From: Phycisphaeraceae bacterium D3-23
GTDB lineage: Bacteria; Planctomycetota; Phycisphaerae; Phycisphaerales; Phycisphaeraceae
Direction of reading: 5' to 3'
Length of the DNA: 64,000 bases
Assembly: GCA_039555135.1 (NCBI GenBank)
Contig: CP114179.1
Location: 4,030,001-4,094,000 of the forward strand
This document shows, piece after piece, positions 42,831 through 53,212 of the stretch. Under the pieces are notes generated by a model that made no database searches, was not told where the DNA came from, and saw only the letters and a list, made by a program, of their open reading frames with translations. How positions within the stretch are numbered: the stretch's first letter is position 1; each line of letters begins with the position of its first letter. Both the position numbers and the translations under genes were made by a program.

Positions 42831-45800
42831 ATGCTCGCCCGACTCATCGAGTTTTCACTTAAGAACCGCATCCTGGTGATGCTGCTGTTCGCGATCGCCT
42901 GCGCCGCCGGGATTTACCGGCTGGTGCAGCTCCCGGTCGATGCCTTCCCCGACACCACGCCGGTGCAGGTGCAGATCAACACCATCGCCCCGGCGCTCAG
43001 CCCCGAAGAGATCGAGCAGCAGATCACGCTGCCGGTGGAGCTGTCGATCGGCGGTCTGCCCGGCCTGCAAAATGTTCGATCGGTCTCCAAGTTCGGCTTC
43101 TCGCAGGTGGTCGCCACTTTCGACGACGACACCGAGATCATCGACGCCCGGCAGTACGTCACCGAGCGGCTCTCGACCGTCGAGCTGCCCGAGGGGGTCG
43201 GACGCCCCGAGTTGGGGCCGATCGCGACCGGTCTGGGGGAGGTCTTCCACTACACCATCAGCTCCGATGACCCCGACCGCTCGATCGAGGAGCTGCGGAC
43301 GATCCACGATTGGGTGATCAAGCCGGAGTTGCGGAAGGTCCCCGGCGTGGCGGAGGTCAACTCCTGGGGCGGGCACGAGCGGCAGTACCACGTCGTCATC
43401 AATCCCGAAGCCCTCATCAAGTACGGCTTCACGATGGACCAAGTGCTTGAAGCCCTGCGCCGCAACAACGCGAACGTCGGCGGCGGCCAGCTCGTCACGT
43501 CGGGCGAGGCCCGGATCGTGCGAGGCGTCGGCCGGGTTTCGAGTATCGAGCAGATAGAGAACATCGTCGTGGCCTCAAACGACGGCACGCCGGTGCTGAT
43601 CCGCGACGTGGCGAGCGTCGAGATCGGCAGCGAAATCCGCCGCGGGGCGGTCTCGGCATCCGGCGAGGGCGAAGTGGTGCTCGGCCTGGCGTTCATGCTG
43701 ATGGGCGAGAACAGTCAGGAGGTCACCGAGCAGCTCCGGGAGCGGCTCGATTCACTCGAACCGTCGCTACCCGACGACGTGAAGGTCGAGGTCGTCTACG
43801 ACCGCACCACACTCGTGGACAAGGTGATCGAGACGGTTAAGCACAACCTGGTCATCGGAGCGGCGTTGGTGGTGCTCACGCTGCTGTTCTTGCTGGGCAA
43901 CATCCGGGCGGGGATTCTGGTCGCCGTGGCGATCCCGATCTCGGCGCTGTTTGCCGTCCAGGGCATGCACGAATTCGCCATTGCCGCGAGCCTGCTCAGC
44001 CTGGGCGCGATCGACTTCGGCATCCTCGTCGACGGGTCGGTGGTGATGACCGAGGCCAACCTCCGGGGCCTCAAAAAGCGGCAGCGCGAGCTGGGACGCA
44101 AGCTCACGAGCGACGAACGTCTCCAGTCGATCGCCGAGTCGAGCGCCCATGTGGTCCGGCCCATCGTTTTCGGGATGGCGATCATCGCGTTGGTCTTCGT
44201 GCCCGTACTCACCCTGGAGGGCACCGAGGGCAAGCTGTTTCGGCCGATGGCCTGGACGTTCATCTTTGCCCTGGCGGGCGCACTGCTGATCGCGGTCTTC
44301 CTGTCGCCGGTACTGTCGTACTACTTTCTGCCGAGGCGGACCAAGCCCAAAGAAGGACCGATCAGCCGGGCGATGAGCGGCTCCTACGGGTGGCTCGTCG
44401 GCAAGGCCCTGCGCCTTCGGTGGCTCATACTGATCCTGGTCGTCGGCCTGCTCAGCGTCGCGGGCTACCGCAGCACCCAGATGGGCGGCGAGTTTGTCCC
44501 GAAACTGAGCGAGGGGTCGATCACGATCAACACCATCCGCCTGGCGGGCGTCTCGATCGAGGAATCGGTCCGCTACAACACACGCATCGAGCAGGTCCTC
44601 TTGGAGGAGTTCCCCGACGAGATCGAGCACGTCTGGAGCCGGATCGGCACGGCCGAGGTGGCGACCGATCCGATGGGGATCGAGCTGACCGACATTTTCA
44701 TGACCCTCAAGCCGCGTTCGGAGTGGACCCGCGCGACCACGCAAGCCGGGCTAACCGCCGAGATGGAGAAGATCATCTCGCAGTTCCCCGGCGTGAACAT
44801 GATCTTCACCCAGCCGATCGAGATGCGGATGAACGAGATGGAGTCCGGCATCCGCTCAGATATCGGCATCAAAATCTACGGCGACGATTTCGATGAGCTG
44901 CTCCGCCTGGCCGACGAGGTGCAACGCATCCTCCTCGACGTGGAAGGGGTCTCGGATATCTCGGTGGACCAGATCACCGGCCAGCCCGAGCTGGACATCA
45001 CGGTCGATCAGGCCCGCACCGCCCGCTACGGCGTCGCGTCACGCGAGGTGCTCGATTTTGTCGAGGCGATCGGTGGGATTCGGGTAGGCGAGGTGTTTGA
45101 GGGGCAGCGGGTTTTCCCGTTGGTCGTGCGCCTCCCGGAGACCTTCCGGCAGGATGTGTCGGCCATCGAATCGGTCCGCGTTCCGACGGAAGGCGGCGTG
45201 GCGGTGCCGCTCTCGGCGATGGCTTCGGTGGACCAGACCGAGGGCGCGTCCACCATCAACCGGGAGTGGGGGCGACGCCTGATCCGGGTGCAGTGCAACG
45301 TCGTCGGCCGCGACCCCGCCTCGTTCGTTGCCGAAGCCCAGGAAGCGATCAACACCAGTGTGGCGTTGCCCGAGGGCTACGTCATCGAGTGGGGCGGCCA
45401 GTTCGAGAACCTGGAGCGGGCCAAGCTCCGCCTGGCCATCGTGGTGCCGGCCGTGCTGCTGCTGATCTTCTTCATGCTGTATTTCAGCATGAAGAACCTG
45501 CGGGACGTGCTCATCATCTACACCGGCATCCCGTTTGCGGCGGTGGGTGCGATTTTCGCATTGTGGTTACGTGACATCCCATTCAGCGTCAGCGCCGCCG
45601 TGGGTTTCATCGCCCTGTCAGGTATCGCGGTGCTCAATGGCCAGATCCTGATTGAGGCCATCCGTGAGAATCGACGGCAGGGTTTCGACAAACAGAGCTC
45701 AATCATTGAAGCCGCCAAGACCCGACTCCGCCCGGTTCTGGCTACGGCTATCACCGACGCGGCCGGCTTCATCCCAATGGCAGTTTCAACCGGGGTCGGC

Positions 45801-45947
45801 AGCGAGGTGCAACGCCCGCTCGCTACAGTGGTCATTGGCGGTATCATCACTTCGACCTTGCTCACGCTTCTAGTACTCCCGACAATGAGCTACCTGTTGA
45901 CGGGACCTGATAGCAAGGCTCAAGTAAGAAGCAACGATGACGCATGA
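42831..45947 (+). CDS. czcA: heavy-metal RND efflux permease, CzcA type
   Basis: The 1038-residue pump has the TM4 proton-relay motif [20 protein letters not shown], the DFG-x3-D...E form that marks the Zn/Co/Cd/Ni subgroups (HME1-3). It also has [20 protein letters not shown] and [19 protein letters not shown], the periplasmic cleft residues of CzcA rather than the Met-rich CusA version. Length is standard. It starts 11 bases after czcB with a GGAG site. Its last codons overlap the start of a CDF gene. Together with CusA this gives two pumps of different metal class in one region. Confidence 0.96.
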
Positions 45948-46857
45948 CCATAGCCACCACTCCACCGAAGGGGTCAGCGATACTCGTCTGCTCTGGTCCT
46001 TCGTCATCAACCAACTGCTGACCGTTGCCCAGGTCGTCGCCGGCTTCCTGTCCGGCAGCGTCGCCTTGCTCTCTGACGCCGCCCACAACTTCAACGACGC
46101 CAACGCGCTGCTCATCGCATACATCGCCCGACGGGTGTCCCGCAAGGACGCGGACCACCGCTACACCTTCGGCTACCGCCGTGCCGAACTCATCGGGGCG
46201 CTGATCAACCTCACCACGCTCGGCGTGATCGGGCTCGCTCTGGTCTATCAGGCGGTCATGCGCTTCTTCGAGCCGGTCGAAATCATCGGCTGGCTCATGG
46301 CCGCCGCCGCCGGGTTAGCGATCGTGGTCGACCTGGGCACCGCGCTGTTGCTGTGGTCCATGAGCCGCGGCTCCCTCAACGTCCGCGCCGCCTTCGTCCA
46401 CAACCTTGTCGATGCGCTCGGCTCGGTCGCGGTCCTCCTCGCCGCCGGCCTCATCATCTGGCTCGACTGGAACTGGGTCGATCCAGTCCTCACCCTCGTC
46501 ATCGCCGGGTATGTCCTCTGGCAGGTCTTCAAGATGATGCCCCAAGCCGTCCGCATCCTCATGGAAGGCACGCCCCCCGACCTCGACCTCGACCAACTCG
46601 CCGAGCAGGTCGAACGCATCCCCGGCGTCGAAACCATCCACCACCTCCACGTCTGGCAACTCGACGAGGAACACCGCGCACTCGAAGCACACGTCGTCAC
46701 ACCCGACGGGGCCGATGCGCAGTGGACACAGACAAAGCAGCAGATCAAAGACCTGCTGCAAGAAGAGTTTGATATCCACCACTCAACACTGGAACACGAG
46801 CCCCAAACACCGATCGACAAAGACTGCGAGAACGCGGGCCTGATCACCCCGCATTAG
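45937..46857 (+). CDS. czcD: cation diffusion facilitator (CzcD-like)
   Basis: The 306-residue CDF transporter has six TM segments, the metal-site pairs [11 protein letters not shown] (TM2) and [10 protein letters not shown] (TM5), a His-rich N-terminus (MTHDHSHHS) and the cytoplasmic C-terminal domain ([20 protein letters not shown]). It exports zinc or similar divalent ions from the cytoplasm. It overlaps czcA by 11 bases. A hairpin GTTCCC/GGGAAC at 46901-46917 follows the stop and may end the operon. Confidence 0.95.
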
Positions 46858-47035: not shown

Positions 47036-47419
47036 ATGAAGTATTGCGTTGCGGCGGTCTTGCTCGTGATTGTCTTCACGCTCATGCTGTATTCATGCAG
47101 TTCGGTGGCGTATCAGCCAGACACGTTCTGGGAAGACCTTAGGTCACTGATCGAGAAGGAGCAGCACCGAAGAGCGATCAAGTTGCTGGATCGTGCTGAT
47201 ATTCAGGAACAGTTAGCGCATGACGGGCAGGGCTATGTGTTGATTGCGGAAGACTTGATCTACCGGCCGGGCGTGCCCGACGCATCATCTGACCCGGAGG
47301 ACGGCGACTGGGAAATCCCGGGCACCTCCGATACCAACACACACCGGGCGTGGCAGGAGGCGGCTAAATCGTTCGCTGCGCAATACAACGCGGCGCGCTG
47401 GGCTTTGGATCATCCGTGA
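47036..47419 (+). CDS. small hypothetical lipoprotein-like protein
   Basis: The 127-residue protein has an N-terminal hydrophobic signal (YCVAAVLLVIVFTLMLYSCSS), possibly a lipobox with Cys21. A short helical domain follows, with WEDLRSLIEKEQHRRAIKLL, GYVLIAEDLIYRPGVPD and YNAARWALDHP. No family is recognised. It lies between czcD and merR, read in the same direction, with no apparent promoter of its own class. Confidence 0.6.
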   Translation: MKYCVAAVLLVIVFTLMLYSCSSVAYQPDTFWEDLRSLIEKEQHRRAIKLLDRADIQEQLAHDGQGYVLIAEDLIYRPGVPDASSDPEDGDWEIPGTSDTNTHRAWQEAAKSFAAQYNAARWALDHP

Positions 47420-47489: not shown

Positions 47490-47918
47490 ATGGAGACGAC
47501 GTGGACGATTGGGAATCTGGCGAAGGCGGCGGGGCTGCCGGTCTCGACGCTGCGGTACTACGAGCGGATCGGGCTGCTCGTGCCGGGGCATCGGTCCAAG
47601 GGGAACTACCGACTGTACGGGGCGGGGGATGTCGAGCGGTTGGGGTTCATTAAAGAAGCGCAGTCGATCGGGTTCTCGCTGGACGATATCCGCGTGCTGC
47701 TGGGGCTGGAGCGGGGGACGACGGCGGTGTGTGGCGAGGTGGTGGGGATGCTGGAGGGTCGGCTGGCGGAGGTGTCGGAGCAGATGCGTCGGCTGCGGCG
47801 CGTGCAGAAGGTGCTGCGGTCGTCGCTGGAGCTTTGCGAGACGAGCGGCGACGCGGGCAGGTGCCTGCTGATCGCGAAGCTGGACTCGTCGGCGAAAAAA
47901 ATAGAATCCGGGGCTTGA
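47490..47918 (+). CDS. merR: MerR family regulator with Hg(II)-type cysteine spacing
   Basis: The 142-residue protein has the MerR helix-turn-helix (WTIGNLAKAAGLPVSTLRYY, ERIGLL, GNYRLYGAGDVERL), a long dimerisation helix and cysteines at residues 81, 116 and 125. The spacing 35 then 9 is the same as Cys82, Cys117 and Cys126 of Tn501 MerR, which bind Hg(II) in trigonal geometry. Zinc, copper and cadmium MerR proteins differ. The ATG at 47490 is preferred over the ATG at 47472. The stop codon overlaps the -35 box of the promoter of the next gene. No merA or merT is visible. Confidence 0.9.
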   Translation: METTWTIGNLAKAAGLPVSTLRYYERIGLLVPGHRSKGNYRLYGAGDVERLGFIKEAQSIGFSLDDIRVLLGLERGTTAVCGEVVGMLEGRLAEVSEQMRRLRRVQKVLRSSLELCETSGDAGRCLLIAKLDSSAKKIESGA

Positions 47919-47946
47919 CCTTGCACCCGGGTTCAGCCCTTAGTAT
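47915..47946 (+). promoter_or_regulatory. MerR-type promoter with 20-bp spacer
   Basis: TTGACC (47915-47920) and TAGTAT (47941-47946) are separated by 20 bases, the over-long spacing diagnostic of promoters twisted open by MerR proteins. A central CCCGGG lies inside a partial dyad (TTGCACCCGGGTTCAG). The -35 overlaps the merR stop codon at 47916-47918. The target is the selenoprotein gene at 47971. Confidence 0.7.
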
Positions 47947-47970
47947 GCCTATACACAGGAGCTCTTCATC

Positions 47971-48408
47971 ATGGAAACGACACTTTTTTCTATCCCGACG
48001 TTTGCCTTCATGGCCTTGGCATTGGCCGCGTGTTCCAGCTCGCATCATATTGCGGGAGATGCGGCCGATGGCCACGGGACGGAGGCGGAACACGTGGTCA
48101 CCATCCTTCAGGAGGACGGCTGAGCGAACACCCCCAAGGCGGTCGCCTTGATTGAAGAGTTCGCCGAAGAAAACGATGTCGATATCCGGTTTGAGACGAT
48201 CGTGGTTAGAAACGAACTGGATGTGCAGGCCTACCGCTACCTCGGCAGCCCGTCCGTGCGGATCAACGGCTTGGATGTCGATCCCCGGGCACGTTCAAGC
48301 AGACAGTACGGCTTCGGCTGACGCCTGATGTACTGGACGCAGGGTGCGTCCCAAACCGAGACGATGCTCCGCAACGCCTTTGTCGAGGCGGGATGGTTGG
48401 CGGAATAA
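47971..48408 (+). CDS. putative two-selenocysteine thioredoxin-like lipoprotein
   Basis: From the ATG at 47971, preceded by AGGAG nine bases upstream, a 145-codon frame runs to TAA at 48406-48408 with TGA at codon 51 (48121-48123) and codon 117 (48319-48321). Reading TGA as selenocysteine gives a lipoprotein signal (ALALAAC), a linker, then a thioredoxin-like domain: EDG-Sec-ANTPKAVALIEEFAE, LGSPSVRINGLDVD, QYGFG-Sec-RLMYW and a C-terminal helix. As I recall, cytosolic relatives read DGCPN and GCRLY at the same two positions. Each TGA is followed by a hairpin like the E. coli SECIS. The signal peptide lacks a basic N-terminus. The selenocysteine machinery is not in this window. A pseudogene is the main alternative, but frame, ends and motifs are intact. 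Confidence 0.85.
48135..48150 (+). other. SECIS-like hairpin after the first TGA
   Basis: A 6-bp stem CAAGGC/GCCTTG encloses loop GGTC (48141-48144). Seventeen bases separate it from the TGA at 48121-48123. The GGUC loop and distance match the fdhF SECIS of E. coli closely (GGUC after 18 bases), where SelB contacts the G and U of the loop. Confidence 0.7.
48335..48351 (+). other. SECIS-like hairpin after the second TGA
   Basis: A 7-bp stem GGACGCA/TGCGTCC encloses loop GGG (48342-48344). Twenty bases separate it from the TGA at 48319-48321. A GGG loop, or AGGGT if the last pair opens, satisfies the guanine-in-apical-loop rule for bacterial SECIS elements. Confidence 0.65.
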
Positions 48409-48931: not shown

Positions 48932-49261
48932 TCAATGACTCACTCGCAGCAGGTGGTATTCGCCTTGTTGGCGTGTGATCGTGTCGATCCACTGCTCCCC
49001 GCGGTAGGTGTAACGGAGTTGAAGGGCGTTGATATGGGGCTGGTCGAGGAGCAAGCGTCCCTTCACGAGATCGACCGGTATGGGGACCGCCGTGGATTGG
49101 TTCACCGAGTCCTTGATCGCAATGTGTTGGATTATTGTGCAAGCTGCGAGGTCGCGAAATAGGTCGTCCAGATCCGAGGTGGATAGTGTCGCCTCGACCG
49201 ATAGCGGTGCTCCGGTGATGGGCTGAGAAGTCGTCTCGGCTTGGGGGTCGTGGTCAGACAT
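48932..49261 (-). CDS. small hypothetical protein at the end of the nap operon
   Basis: A 109-residue soluble protein without cysteines. It contains SDLDDLFRDLAACTIIQHIA, followed by beta-like DLVKGRLLLDQPHINALQLRY. I recall no family. Its start overlaps the stop of the NapF-like gene by eight bases, so it is the last gene of the nap operon. A chaperone-like role for nitrate reductase is possible from position only. Confidence 0.65.
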   Translation of the reverse strand: MSDHDPQAETTSQPITGAPLSVEATLSTSDLDDLFRDLAACTIIQHIAIKDSVNQSTAVPIPVDLVKGRLLLDQPHINALQLRYTYRGEQWIDTITRQQGEYHLLRVSH

Positions 49262-49895
49262 CGTCGGGACCGCCTTTCGGGGTCGGCCGTCTCTCGAGCG
49301 GCATGATGGCGATCGCGTTCGTGGGTGCGGGGCAGGCGTAGTGGCAGACGCCGCAGCCGGTGCAGTGGTCGAGGTGGACCGTCGGTCTGCCCTGGTCGAG
49401 TGTGATCGCGCCGGGGGCGGGGCACTGCTCGTGGCAGACGGTGCAGAACGAGCCCTGATGCGCGAGGCAGTTGTAGTCGAGCAGGCGTGCGGAGGCGATC
49501 GGGCCGAGCACTTCGAGCATCAGCGCGTCCTCGGGGCAGGCGCTGATGCACGGGTAGTCGCTGCACATCAGGCAGGGCGACTGCGCGGGGTCGATCATCG
49601 GCGTACCCGCCGCGCCGCGGAATCGGATCGGGGCGTGTGTGACCGCGTCGTGCGGGCAGGCCTCGACGCATTGGTCGCACTTGGTACAGCCCTTCAGGAA
49701 CGCGGGCTCATCCACCGCGCCCGGCGGACGGACGACGGGGAAGACTCGGCCACCTGCCCGGCCCGAAGCAACCGGTCCGCTGGATGTCGCCACCAGAGGC
49801 CGTGTCGGGGCGGCGTTTTCCGGCGGTGGAACGATCCCCTTGGGCAGCCGGCCGCGCAGGAGTTGGCGGCGCGAGATGTTTCCGGGGTCACTCAT
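49254..49895 (-). CDS. napF: NapF-like ferredoxin-type protein
   Basis: The 213-residue protein has an N-terminal RRQLLRGR (a twin-arginine-like sequence also typical for cytoplasmic NapF). Four Cys clusters for [4Fe-4S] centres follow: CTKCDQCVEAC, CLMCSDYPCISACP, CTVCHEQCPAP and CTGCGVCHYACP. NapF helps insert iron-sulfur clusters or couples electron flow in periplasmic nitrate reduction. The ATG at 49895 overlaps the stop of napB; the long ORF reading upstream through napB in another frame is an artefact. Confidence 0.88.
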   Translation of the reverse strand: MSDPGNISRRQLLRGRLPKGIVPPPENAAPTRPLVATSSGPVASGRAGGRVFPVVRPPGAVDEPAFLKGCTKCDQCVEACPHDAVTHAPIRFRGAAGTPMIDPAQSPCLMCSDYPCISACPEDALMLEVLGPIASARLLDYNCLAHQGSFCTVCHEQCPAPGAITLDQGRPTVHLDHCTGCGVCHYACPAPTNAIAIMPLERRPTPKGGPDDV

Positions 49896-50739
49896 GGCCT
49901 GCCTGGTCTGGGCCTGGGAGGAAGAAGGAGTCGGGGTCGAACGCGCCGGGCTGGCGGTCGAGTTCTGCCGAGGGGGCGTGGCACTGCGTGCAACTTGTGC
50001 GCCAGGGGTGGCTGGATTGCAGGCCGCTCGCGCCGTTGGGGCCGTGGCAGGCGATGCAGTTGCTGCGCATGTGAGTGGTGTGCGGGATGGTGGGGGGCGC
50101 ACCTTGCCAGGCGCGTTCGCCGTGGGTCGGCGCGGGCAGGCCCTGGAAATCGTTGTCGAGCCAGGGGAGTTCGTCGGGTGCCAGCGTATTCTGCGGGACG
50201 TGGCACTGCGTACAGCTGGCGTAGGGGGCGTGGGGCATCGGCCGGGCCACCACATCGCCGACGCGCATGCCCTGTGGGCCGTGGCAGGCGGTGCAGCCGG
50301 TGACATCGACGGGGTCGATGCGGTGGGGGATGGTCGGCGGCGCGCCGTTAAACGCGCGGCGCTCTTCCCTGGCGGCGAGGTCGCGCTGCTTGTCCTGTTC
50401 GGTCCCGGGCTGGACCAGCGCCCACTGTTCTTCGAGCGAAAGCCCCGCGGTGAGCCGGGTGTGCCAGTCGGCGTTCGGGCCAAGACTGCCCGACGCGATG
50501 TCGGTGTAGCGCGTCGCGGGGTGCACCCCGGTCGTGAGGTGCGGTTGGCCCTCCGCTGTTTGCGGGGTTGCGGGGGTGTCGCGTGGCGATGTCGGCTCAT
50601 ACCGGATGCCGAAGTAGAGCCCGACGACTGTTGCGGCGATCGCGCAGATGTAGACGATGTGCATCGCGCGCCCGGTGGGTACGCCGTGCGGCTCGGCCGG
50701 TTCGACCTTCTCAGTTTCTTCGGATGCTTCTTCGTGCAT
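49888..50739 (-). CDS. napB: NapB-like tetraheme cytochrome c
   Basis: The 283-residue protein has a single membrane anchor near IVYICAIAATVVGLYFGI (28-45) and a periplasmic part with four CxxCH sites: 149-153, 176-180, 228-232 and 250-254. Two homologous units start at GAPPTIPHRID and at GAPPTIPHTTH, so a standard diheme NapB domain has been duplicated. NapB passes electrons to NapA. A duplicated, membrane-anchored NapB could also bind quinol-oxidising partners. The ATG at 50739 excludes an N-terminal shadow extension. It follows napA by 25 bases. Confidence 0.88.
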   Translation of the reverse strand: MHEEASEETEKVEPAEPHGVPTGRAMHIVYICAIAATVVGLYFGIRYEPTSPRDTPATPQTAEGQPHLTTGVHPATRYTDIASGSLGPNADWHTRLTAGLSLEEQWALVQPGTEQDKQRDLAAREERRAFNGAPPTIPHRIDPVDVTGCTACHGPQGMRVGDVVARPMPHAPYASCTQCHVPQNTLAPDELPWLDNDFQGLPAPTHGERAWQGAPPTIPHTTHMRSNCIACHGPNGASGLQSSHPWRTSCTQCHAPSAELDRQPGAFDPDSFFLPGPDQAGHE

Positions 50740-50764
50740 ACGTTCTATCCCCGATCCGCGGGCA

Positions 50765-53212
50765 TCAGCGTGGCGTACTGACAAGCCGGACCGCACACTT
50801 TTTGTAGTCGGGTTCTTTCGAGATCGGACAGTGCGCGTCGAGTGTCACCTCGTTGATGAGCTTGGTCTCGTCGAAGAACGGGACAAAGACGCTGCCGCGC
50901 GGCGGGCGGCCCCGCCCGTTGATCCAGACCGGCAGGTCGATACGCCCACGGCGGGACTCGACGCCGACACGATCGCCGTTGCCCACGCCCAGCTCTGCGG
51001 CGTCGTCGGGGTGCAGTTCGACGTAGGCCCGCGGCATCGCGCGAGACAGCTGTGGGACGCGGCGCGTCATTGTGCCGGTGTGCCAGTGCTCCAGGACCCG
51101 CCCGGTGCACAGCCAGAACGGGTATGCATCGTCAGGCATCTCCGGCGGGTCGACGTAGGGAAAAAACCAGATCTGCGCCCTGCCGTCGTGCGTGTTGGAG
51201 TGGTAGAAATCAAACGCCTTGGGCTCGCCCGATGCGGTCTTGCCGACGTAGGGGTCGTCGAAACCGGAGAAGCGGAACTTCGTCTCGCGCCAGCTGCCGT
51301 CGGGCTGCTCGACGACAGGCCAGCGCAGGCCGCGTGCCTTGACGTACTCGTCGTAGGGCGCGAGGTCTTTGTGCTTGAGCCGGGTGAATCTGCGGTACTG
51401 CTCGAAGAGGCGTTTATCGACGTTGACTTTGCCGTAGTAGCTGTCCCATTCCCAGATCGGGACTTCGTTGCCCCCGTCATCTTCGGTGTGGAAGAGGAAC
51501 TTGCCGTCGGTCTGTTTCATGCCCGCGTGGCCGCGGTCGAAGAGGCGCTTGGCGACGGCGATGGTCTGCCAGCAGTCGTCGCGTGCATCCCCGGGCGGCT
51601 CGACCTGCTTGAACCACTGCTGCGTGCGCCGCTCGGAGTTGCCGAACACACCGTTCTTCTCGACCCACAGCGCGCTGGGGAGGATGAGGTCGGCCAGCTG
51701 CGTCGTCGCGGTAGGGTAGACCTCCGAAACGATGAGGAACTTGTCTTCGAGGTCGTCCTTGGCGTTGAAGAGCTTGTGCAGGTTGGGCAGGGATTGGCCG
51801 GGGTTGGTGACCTGGACCCAGATGGTGTCGATGTCGCCGCCCTGGTCGGTGGGGGTGCAGAACTGCTCGAACATCTTGACGGTGTGGTAGCCGGGGGCGG
51901 GGTTGATCCGGCCGCGGTCGACGTTCCAGAGGTCTTCGCACTGGTTGCGGTGTTCTTCGTTGGCGACAACGCGGCCGCCGGGCAGGGCGTGGGCGAGCGT
52001 GCCGACCTCGCGTGCCGTGCCGCAGGCGGAGGGCTGGCCGGTGAGTGAGGTCGGCGCATCGCCTGGCCTTCCGAAGTGTCCCGAGAGCAGGTGGACGGCG
52101 TGGACCAGGTTGTTGATCTGCGTGCCCTGGGTGTGCTGGTTCATCCCCATGCACCACAAGCTCGTGATGCGGATGTCGCGCCGGCCGAACAACTCGCCAA
52201 GCATACGGATGTCCGCCGCCGGCACACCCGAGATCTCCTCAACGCGCTCGGGTGTGTACTCGGCGACGAACGACTTGTACTCCTCAAAGGTCGAGGCCAC
52301 GCCCTTCAGCGTCGGCGCGAGCGGGTCGTCGTGCTTGCGGAAGTTGCAGTAGTTTTCGACGAACGATTGGTCGTAGGTTTCGTTGGCGATGAGCTGATGC
52401 GCGATGCCGTTGGCGATGGCGAGGTCGGACTGCGGGTTGCACTCGAGGTAGTGCTGGCAGTGCTCGGTGGTTCGGGTTCGGCGGGTGCCGATGTCGATGA
52501 GGGTGACTTCCTCGCCGCGCGACCGGCGGTCGATGACGCGGGAGAAGAGGACCGGGTGCATCTCGGCGGGGTTGTTGCCCCACATGATGAGGACGTCGCA
52601 TTCGTCGAGGTCCTGGTAGCAGCCCGCAGGCTCATCGACGCCGTAGGTGCCGATGAAAGAGGTTACCGCCGAGGCCATGCACAGCCGGGCGTTGGGGTCG
52701 ATGTGGTTGCACGCGAGCCCGGCCTTCATGAAGGTCTGGGCGGCGAAGCCCTCGGGGATGGTCCACTGCCCCGAGCCGTAGAACGCGAAGCGGTCGGGGG
52801 CGGCTTGGGCGCAGTCGGCGACGATGTCGATCGCGCGGTCCCAAGAGATCGCGTCGTAGCCGCCGTCGGTATTTTTTAGCAGCGGCCGGGTCAGGCGGTC
52901 GTGGCCGTAGAGGATCGACCCGACGTGGTAGCCCTTGACGCAGAGCAGCCCCTTGTTGACGTCGGCCTGGTTATCGCCGGCGACCGCGACGACCTTGCCG
53001 TCCTTCGTGCCGACCTGCACGTGGCAGCCGGTGCCGCAGAAGCGGCAGGGGGCCTTGTCCCAGCGCACGCCGTCGATCGCGGGCGGGTCGTCGACGACGG
53101 GGAGTGAGATTGTGGCGTCCTCGGCCGGCTGCGCGAACGAGCGGTGCGCCGCAGCGGTCGCGGTGGCCATCGCGATCGACTTGAGGAATGTGCGTCGGCT
53201 GGTGGTTACCAC
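50765..53212 (-). CDS. napA: periplasmic nitrate reductase catalytic subunit
   Basis: The molybdenum enzyme that reduces nitrate to nitrite. The 815-residue precursor has a Tat signal ([20 protein letters not shown]), a [4Fe-4S] site with Cys56, Cys59, Cys63 and Cys91, and the molybdenum-binding Cys178 in [16 protein letters not shown]. The molybdopterin-dinucleotide region follows. The NapA-type motif CRFCGTGC distinguishes it from assimilatory Nas. Start is GTG at 53212, overlapping napD. Confidence 0.96.

Follow-up and report, generated by a model that had tools for sequence, protein, structure and literature searches.

The closest described relative of the gene reported here is the DF family of (seleno)proteins. 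It is listed as 'Hypothetical protein DF' with one selenocysteine (Sec) in a review (PMC13188914), and the deep-Sep source paper knew 'hypothetical protein DF' from Desulfosediminicola flagellatus alone, with no TGA-bearing homologue elsewhere, no conserved domain and no assigned function (PMC12013277). While the DF family itself is already known, the two-Sec lipoprotein form predicted in the genome of Phycisphaeraceae bacterium D3-23 appears to be new. Likewise, no earlier description was found for the breadth of Sec use in this family and for its place in mer operons, a prior mention of the mer link being possible.

The gene lies in a 64,000-nucleotide stretch of this genome, here called the window, in which it carries the following features:

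47957 to 47961, plus strand: ribosome-binding site AGGAG (direct reading)
47971 to 48408, plus strand: DF-family gene of 145 codons, predicted selenoprotein with two Sec (U51, U117; NF049942 88.7 bits, cut-off 70)
48022 to 48033, plus strand: lipobox LAAC with putatively lipidated Cys21 (direct reading)
48121 to 48123, plus strand: TGA codon 51, predicted Sec, Cys in homologues within a DGCPN motif (translation, alignments)
48319 to 48321, plus strand: TGA codon 117, predicted Sec, Cys in homologues within a GCRxY motif (translation, alignments)

With TGA read as U, the frame from 47971 to 48405 is free of further stops and is closed by TAA at 48406 to 48408, giving the translation METTLFSIPTFAFMALALAACSSSHH...QEDG-U51-ANTPK...YLGSPSVRINGLDVDP...YGFG-U117-RLMYW...GWLAE. 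The intact 145-codon frame interrupted by TGA at codons 51 and 117, from which the original prediction had started, is thereby recovered, as is its ribosome-binding site, located 9 nt before the ATG. TGA also serves as an ordinary stop in D3-23, the upstream MerR gene ending in TGA (47916-47918). The proposed signal peptide and lipoprotein nature hold in part: the N-terminus offers a hydrophobic stretch and the lipobox LAAC with C21, a lipobox also occurring in DF relatives L060, L065 and L067, but the n-region has no K or R. Since no basic residue precedes the lipobox, lipidation is likely, though short of sure, and the protein is probably lipid-anchored.

Assignment to the family was made with profile NF049942, "DF family (seleno)protein", whose score of 88.7 bits was obtained with C at both TGAs and which also exceeds its curated cut-off of 70 in a six-frame search (74.4 bits). 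Alignments further reveal the GSPT-x-G-x-D core and the two thiol positions (Cys or Sec) typical of DF proteins. Relatives were taken from family-wise genome searches and from 80 loci of a genome collection; among the latter, UU forms (Sec at both sites) are under-sampled because one of the two search patterns demanded Cys at site 1. As stated in the original prediction, most relatives carry Cys at both columns, the distinct rows with both sites readable comprising 104 CC, 9 CU and 6 UU. The UU rows belong to the D3-23 window, G131 (a second species of the genus), G257, G627, G321 and G307 (L020, L030, L031, L065, L067 and L075), hence four further genomes of the same phylum beyond D3-23 and its sister species. 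CU rows were found in G508, in Chloroflexota (L117, L127, L137) and in Myxococcota and Thermodesulfobacteriota (L140, L144, L146, L150, L152), and neither TAA nor TAG stands at either site in any relative's row. Close relatives in viral contigs were not found. The two residues had been called catalytic cysteines; both are indeed conserved thiol positions, whereas their catalytic role is an interpretation. In a phylogenetic tree, 14 Sec rows cluster with a support of 80/94, a grouping that is not firm with few columns and many open forks, and G307 (L075, UU) falls in a separate clade of MerC-linked Cys-type DF proteins. Judging from these sequences, Sec probably replaced both Cys of DF at least twice independently. 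Single-Sec and double-Sec forms thus span several phyla, as against a record of one bacterium, and two-TGA genes of this kind are easily missed in annotation because the TGAs cut them into fragments too short for calling. Two loci show additional particularities. A MerC-like match lies just downstream of the UU-type DF gene of G307 (L075 / L169). In G508, two extra TGAs (GFG-U-GAVAGLG-U-GS) occur in the same frame behind the CU-type DF lipoprotein (L170, 6721-7620), and an HMA-like stretch, LEQIPGVVEARVDWSG, comes after them; this region may be another domain with Sec for metal binding, either as a fusion or on its own.

The D3-23 genome (4.62 Mb, single contig, 98% complete) was probed for the Sec machinery by family searches. 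Of the selA, selB, selC and selD genes that the original prediction had proposed to look for, selA (522 bits), selB (360.6 bits) and selD (361 bits) were all found above their cut-offs, as was a tRNA-Sec at 3629527 (65.3 bits; ARAGORN tRNA-SeC, anticodon tca), and all four are clustered within 9 kb (3621-3630 kb). The selD gene has an in-frame TGA of its own (CGGU). Among the searched genomes of the taxonomic family, a tRNA-Sec of at least 64 bits occurs only in D3-23 and G131, and the DF gene is likewise confined to these two. Overall, six of the seven searched genomes having TGA at DF sites contain a tRNA-Sec of at least 64 bits. It was not detected in the G257 assembly despite a UU-type DF gene (L031 / L175) on contig C366; since this contig measures only 3.3 kb and the assembly is without a strong tRNA-Sec, the contig may be a binning stray, and the case is probably one of a stray contig or of a missing tRNA. 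As the TGAs fall on two Cys columns, recurring in the sister species and in other lineages, and as the Sec machinery is present, the gene very probably encodes a two-Sec selenoprotein, in agreement with the original reading, none of whose refuting conditions held, and Sec is predicted to be inserted at U51 and U117.

A bacterial SECIS element is a hairpin just past the TGA with G at the start of its loop, that of E. coli fdhF having a GGUC loop. Evidence for such elements comes from our own hairpin scan, in which the 60 nt after each site were searched for stems of at least 5 pairs enclosing a loop of 3-14 nt that starts 16-37 nt past the codon and has G within its first two bases. Both sites gave a SECIS-like candidate:

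48135 to 48150, plus strand: SECIS-like hairpin of codon 51, CAAGGC-GGTC-GCCTTG, loop 17 nt past TGA (hairpin scan)
48335 to 48351, plus strand: SECIS-like hairpin of codon 117, GGACGCA-GGG-TGCGTCC, loop 20 nt past TGA (hairpin scan)

Hairpins of -7 kcal/mol or lower follow site 1 in 6/6 TGA genes compared with 24/123 Cys genes (Fisher p 1e-4, uncorrected for kinship) and site 2 in 11/15 compared with 30/111 (Fisher p 7e-4, equally uncorrected). Moreover, four of the six genes with TGA at site 1, those of the window, G131, G627 and G321, have a GGTC loop exactly at +17. Plain folding energy after codon 51 is low (z -2.6, 45 nt), that of the whole stretch after codon 117 is not unusual (z -0.3 to -0.5), and an Rfam search returned no matching family near the DF gene.

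Upstream of the gene, the window holds a regulator with its promoter and, farther away, two exporter genes:

42831 to 45947, plus strand: CusA/CzcA heavy-metal RND efflux transporter, neighbour (profile search)
45937 to 46857, plus strand: CDF-family cation efflux transporter, neighbour (profile search)
47036 to 47419, plus strand: small predicted lipoprotein without family match, common to G131 (open reading frames, profiles)
47490 to 47918, plus strand: MerR-family metal regulator, with cysteines at all three metal-ligand positions of Tn501 MerR (profiles, alignment)
47915 to 47946, plus strand: MerR-type promoter TTGACC-N20-TAGTAT, its -35 overlapping the merR stop codon (sequence, promoter scan)

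Metal-bound MerR proteins untwist their promoter, and a spacer of 20 bp is also typical of Zn/Cd MerR promoters. Upstream of DF genes, such a promoter with 20-bp spacer was found in 13 of 135 loci, where shuffling predicts 0.05, while every other spacer length occurs there 0-1 times; the examples from Planctomycetota and Myxococcota have a common inner dyad, TTG(C/A)ACC...GGT.CA. A MerR gene lies at most 1.5 kb upstream of DF in 26 of the 36 loci with full flanks and at no other position to 6 kb, the other Sec-type DF genes being mostly without a detectable MerR nearby. Because of this conserved promoter architecture, MerR control of DF can be regarded as a family trait beyond a chance neighbourhood, and the predicted MerR control of the D3-23 gene is supported by gene order and promoter alike. 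Its description as an Hg-type MerR is only partly sustained. The Hg-MerR model TIGR02051 is the best of the metal-MerR models, with ZntR and CadR close behind, but its 106.1 bits remain under the curated cut-off of 150.85; three cysteines align with Tn501 C82, C117 and C126 (vs 5crl, 4ua1), which are not Hg-specific since CadR has cysteines there too.

The link to mercury emerges from the family at large. Within 3 kb of DF, the 135 distinct loci contain MerR in 56 cases, MerT in 53, HMA (MerP-like) in 36, MerC in 15 and MerB in 11, and in the 36 full-flank loci MerT follows at most 1.5 kb downstream in 22 and MerB downstream in 5. DF is even fused to MerT and HMA (L022, L025, L048), to a MerC-like domain (L026, L032, L033, L071) and, in Streptomyces, to MerB (L163, DF part 68 bits and thus slightly below the cut-off). 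L080 has the order MerR, DF and a MerB-MerT-HMA fusion, whose start coincides, by the listed frames, with the final base of DF; Pseudonocardia has MerR, MerB and DF in this order. DF is hence shown to be a widespread component of mercury-resistance operons, so that a testable function can now be assigned to the family; a role of the DF protein in handling Hg or organomercury is likely on these comparisons. As regards annotation, actinobacterial plasmids encode stand-alone DF proteins that are labelled 'alkylmercury lyase' (e.g. L164, NZ_CP113801.1 123461-123769) although their genes count only about 100 codons and match the DF domain; this label was likely carried over from DF-MerB fusions.

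In the D3-23 genome itself, no MerA was found above cut-off, the inspected sub-cut-off matches reading as dihydrolipoamide dehydrogenases, and a family search did not find MerT; MerB gave no match, a weak negative as the search controls were also silent. The mercury detoxification role originally proposed is supported at family level by the mer association and stays a prediction for the D3-23 gene, whose genome yielded no MerA, MerT or MerB. Instead, the MerR-DF pair stands behind the CusA/CzcA and CDF exporter genes. Two further observations concern the surroundings: the small predicted lipoprotein (47036-47419) sits between CDF and MerR, and the minus strand from 48932 to 53212 encodes the periplasmic nitrate reductase NapA (50765-53212) besides adjoining ferredoxin-like and cytochrome-like frames.

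The following course of events would account best for these findings. Metal would bind the adjacent MerR, whereupon the 20-bp-spacer promoter would be untwisted and the DF gene induced. SelB would decode the two UGA codons as Sec with the help of the two hairpins, and the DF protein would be exported and lipid-anchored so as to act outside the cytoplasm. There, Hg(II), organomercury or a comparable soft metal could be captured by its two selenols, with trapping, hand-over or reduction as possible outcomes. The stand-alone DF protein would, in this way, do the job done within mer operons by fusions of DF with MerT-MerP, MerC or MerB. MerR induction and Sec decoding are the steps for which the sequence gives strong support, whereas metal uptake by the exported protein, the identity of the metal, and binding or hand-over as opposed to reduction are inferred from the family. 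Taken together, a MerR-induced exported two-selenolate DF protein that captures mercury, as Hg(II) or in organic form, or else a similar soft metal is, in our estimate, reasonably probable. More tentatively, and with somewhat greater doubt than confidence, a MerR-induced, membrane-anchored bis-selenolate Hg trap may be proposed that works without MerA and MerT and whose double Cys-to-Sec exchange took place at least twice independently. If true, such a trap would constitute a selenium-based mercury defence outside the cell. Hg(II) binds selenolate more tightly than thiolate, and the gene raises the question of whether Sec improves Hg(II) capture.

Other metals come into view with the gene neighbourhood. 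Both species of the genus have the CusA/CzcA and CDF genes immediately upstream in the same orientation, a CDF-like gene also precedes the DF lipoprotein of G249, the MerR scores near ZntR and CadR, and a mer transporter or reductase was not found in the D3-23 genome; all this would suit a two-Sec periplasmic protein that binds Zn, Cd, Pb, Cu or As and hands it over, in company with the CusA and CDF exporters. We nevertheless consider this unlikely, given that the family-wide partners are MerT, MerP, MerC and MerB, with CusA or CDF being rare, and that ligation by two thiols or selenols, by established chemistry, fits Hg best.

Structural models bear on a second alternative. The mature-domain model (pLDDT 89.8, pTM 0.82) and the full-length model both display a thioredoxin-like order of elements, the latter matching thioredoxins and KaiB weakly (Foldseek best E 2.6e-3, Z at most 8); Pfam Thioredoxin_3 scores 17.3 bits, below its cut-off of 24.8, and a PDB search by sequence with the DF protein returned nothing relevant. 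The only isolated bridge residues in both models are 93, preceding cis-Pro94, and 117. The cis-Pro loop of thioredoxin folds faces the position taken here by U51. If residues 93 and 117 do pair, U117 would come to lie beside the cis-Pro loop; according to the models, this is probably its place, with U51 following the first strand. Such proximity of U117 to the U51 site, as suggested by the bridge residues, together with the thioredoxin-like order of elements, would be compatible with a chiefly redox function. In that case the protein would be an exported thioredoxin-like reductase or isomerase of UxxT type, with its first Sec resolved by the second, and would shield the envelope during stress from metals or oxidants. 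However, the CxxC or UxxC motif of thioredoxins is absent, the D3-23 protein having U51-A-N-T, and DF is repeatedly found in fusions with domains of metal transporters and of organomercury lyase, which makes this explanation rather improbable.

The sister species G131, assembled separately, retains both TGAs, and its DF gene differs from that of D3-23 by 5 substitutions in 438 bases, four non-synonymous and one synonymous. A pseudogene or sequencing error with the TGAs as plain stops is very improbable: a ratio of four non-synonymous to one synonymous change gives by itself no sign of purifying selection, yet both TGAs persist in the separate assembly of G131, unrelated lineages also have TGA, and never TAA or TAG, at these two columns, the Sec machinery is complete and SECIS-like hairpins are present. 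A recent transfer of MerR and DF as a block, conceivable from the identical MerR in G131, was rejected, as identity between the two species runs at 97.8% over the entire 12 kb. Synteny with G131 ends 39 bases past the DF stop codon (window 48447; L174 from 11984), and beyond this breakpoint, up to the contig end, inspection of G131 by eye suggests that an IS5-type transposase begins there (MATPRSELTDEQW).

Compared with known systems, the predicted two-Sec protein of D3-23 shares the domain of the NF049942 DF proteins, above cut-off, with Sec in place of the conserved Cys. Unlike D. flagellatus DF with its one Sec, the D3-23 gene has two predicted Sec, a putative lipoprotein export signal and a MerR promoter, and in contrast to the published description of DF, the relatives found here include many with TGA, and the context is that of mer operons. 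With the thioredoxin superfamily (Thioredoxin_3) it has in common, judging by the models, the order of elements, the cis-Pro region and the first thiol position, but it differs in being without CxxC and in the C-terminal location of its second thiol position. Among mer operons, with their MerR, MerT, MerP, MerC and MerB, DF relatives are fused to or stand beside such genes; against a complete mer operon, D3-23 has the MerR-DF pair, with MerA, MerT and MerB not found. Sec in the handling of mercury or soft metals is also known from the putative mercuric transport protein PF02411 (C/SxxU), the UxxU metal-binding protein NF041115 and the MerT/CopZ fusion selenoprotein NF045683, and some described mercury-linked selenoproteins have two Sec, as predicted for DF in D3-23. 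The models of these proteins match parts of the DF-MerT-HMA fusions and not the D3-23 DF protein: while the described mercury-linked selenoproteins are of the MerT or HMA type, the protein of D3-23 is built on the DF domain, which is probably thioredoxin-like.
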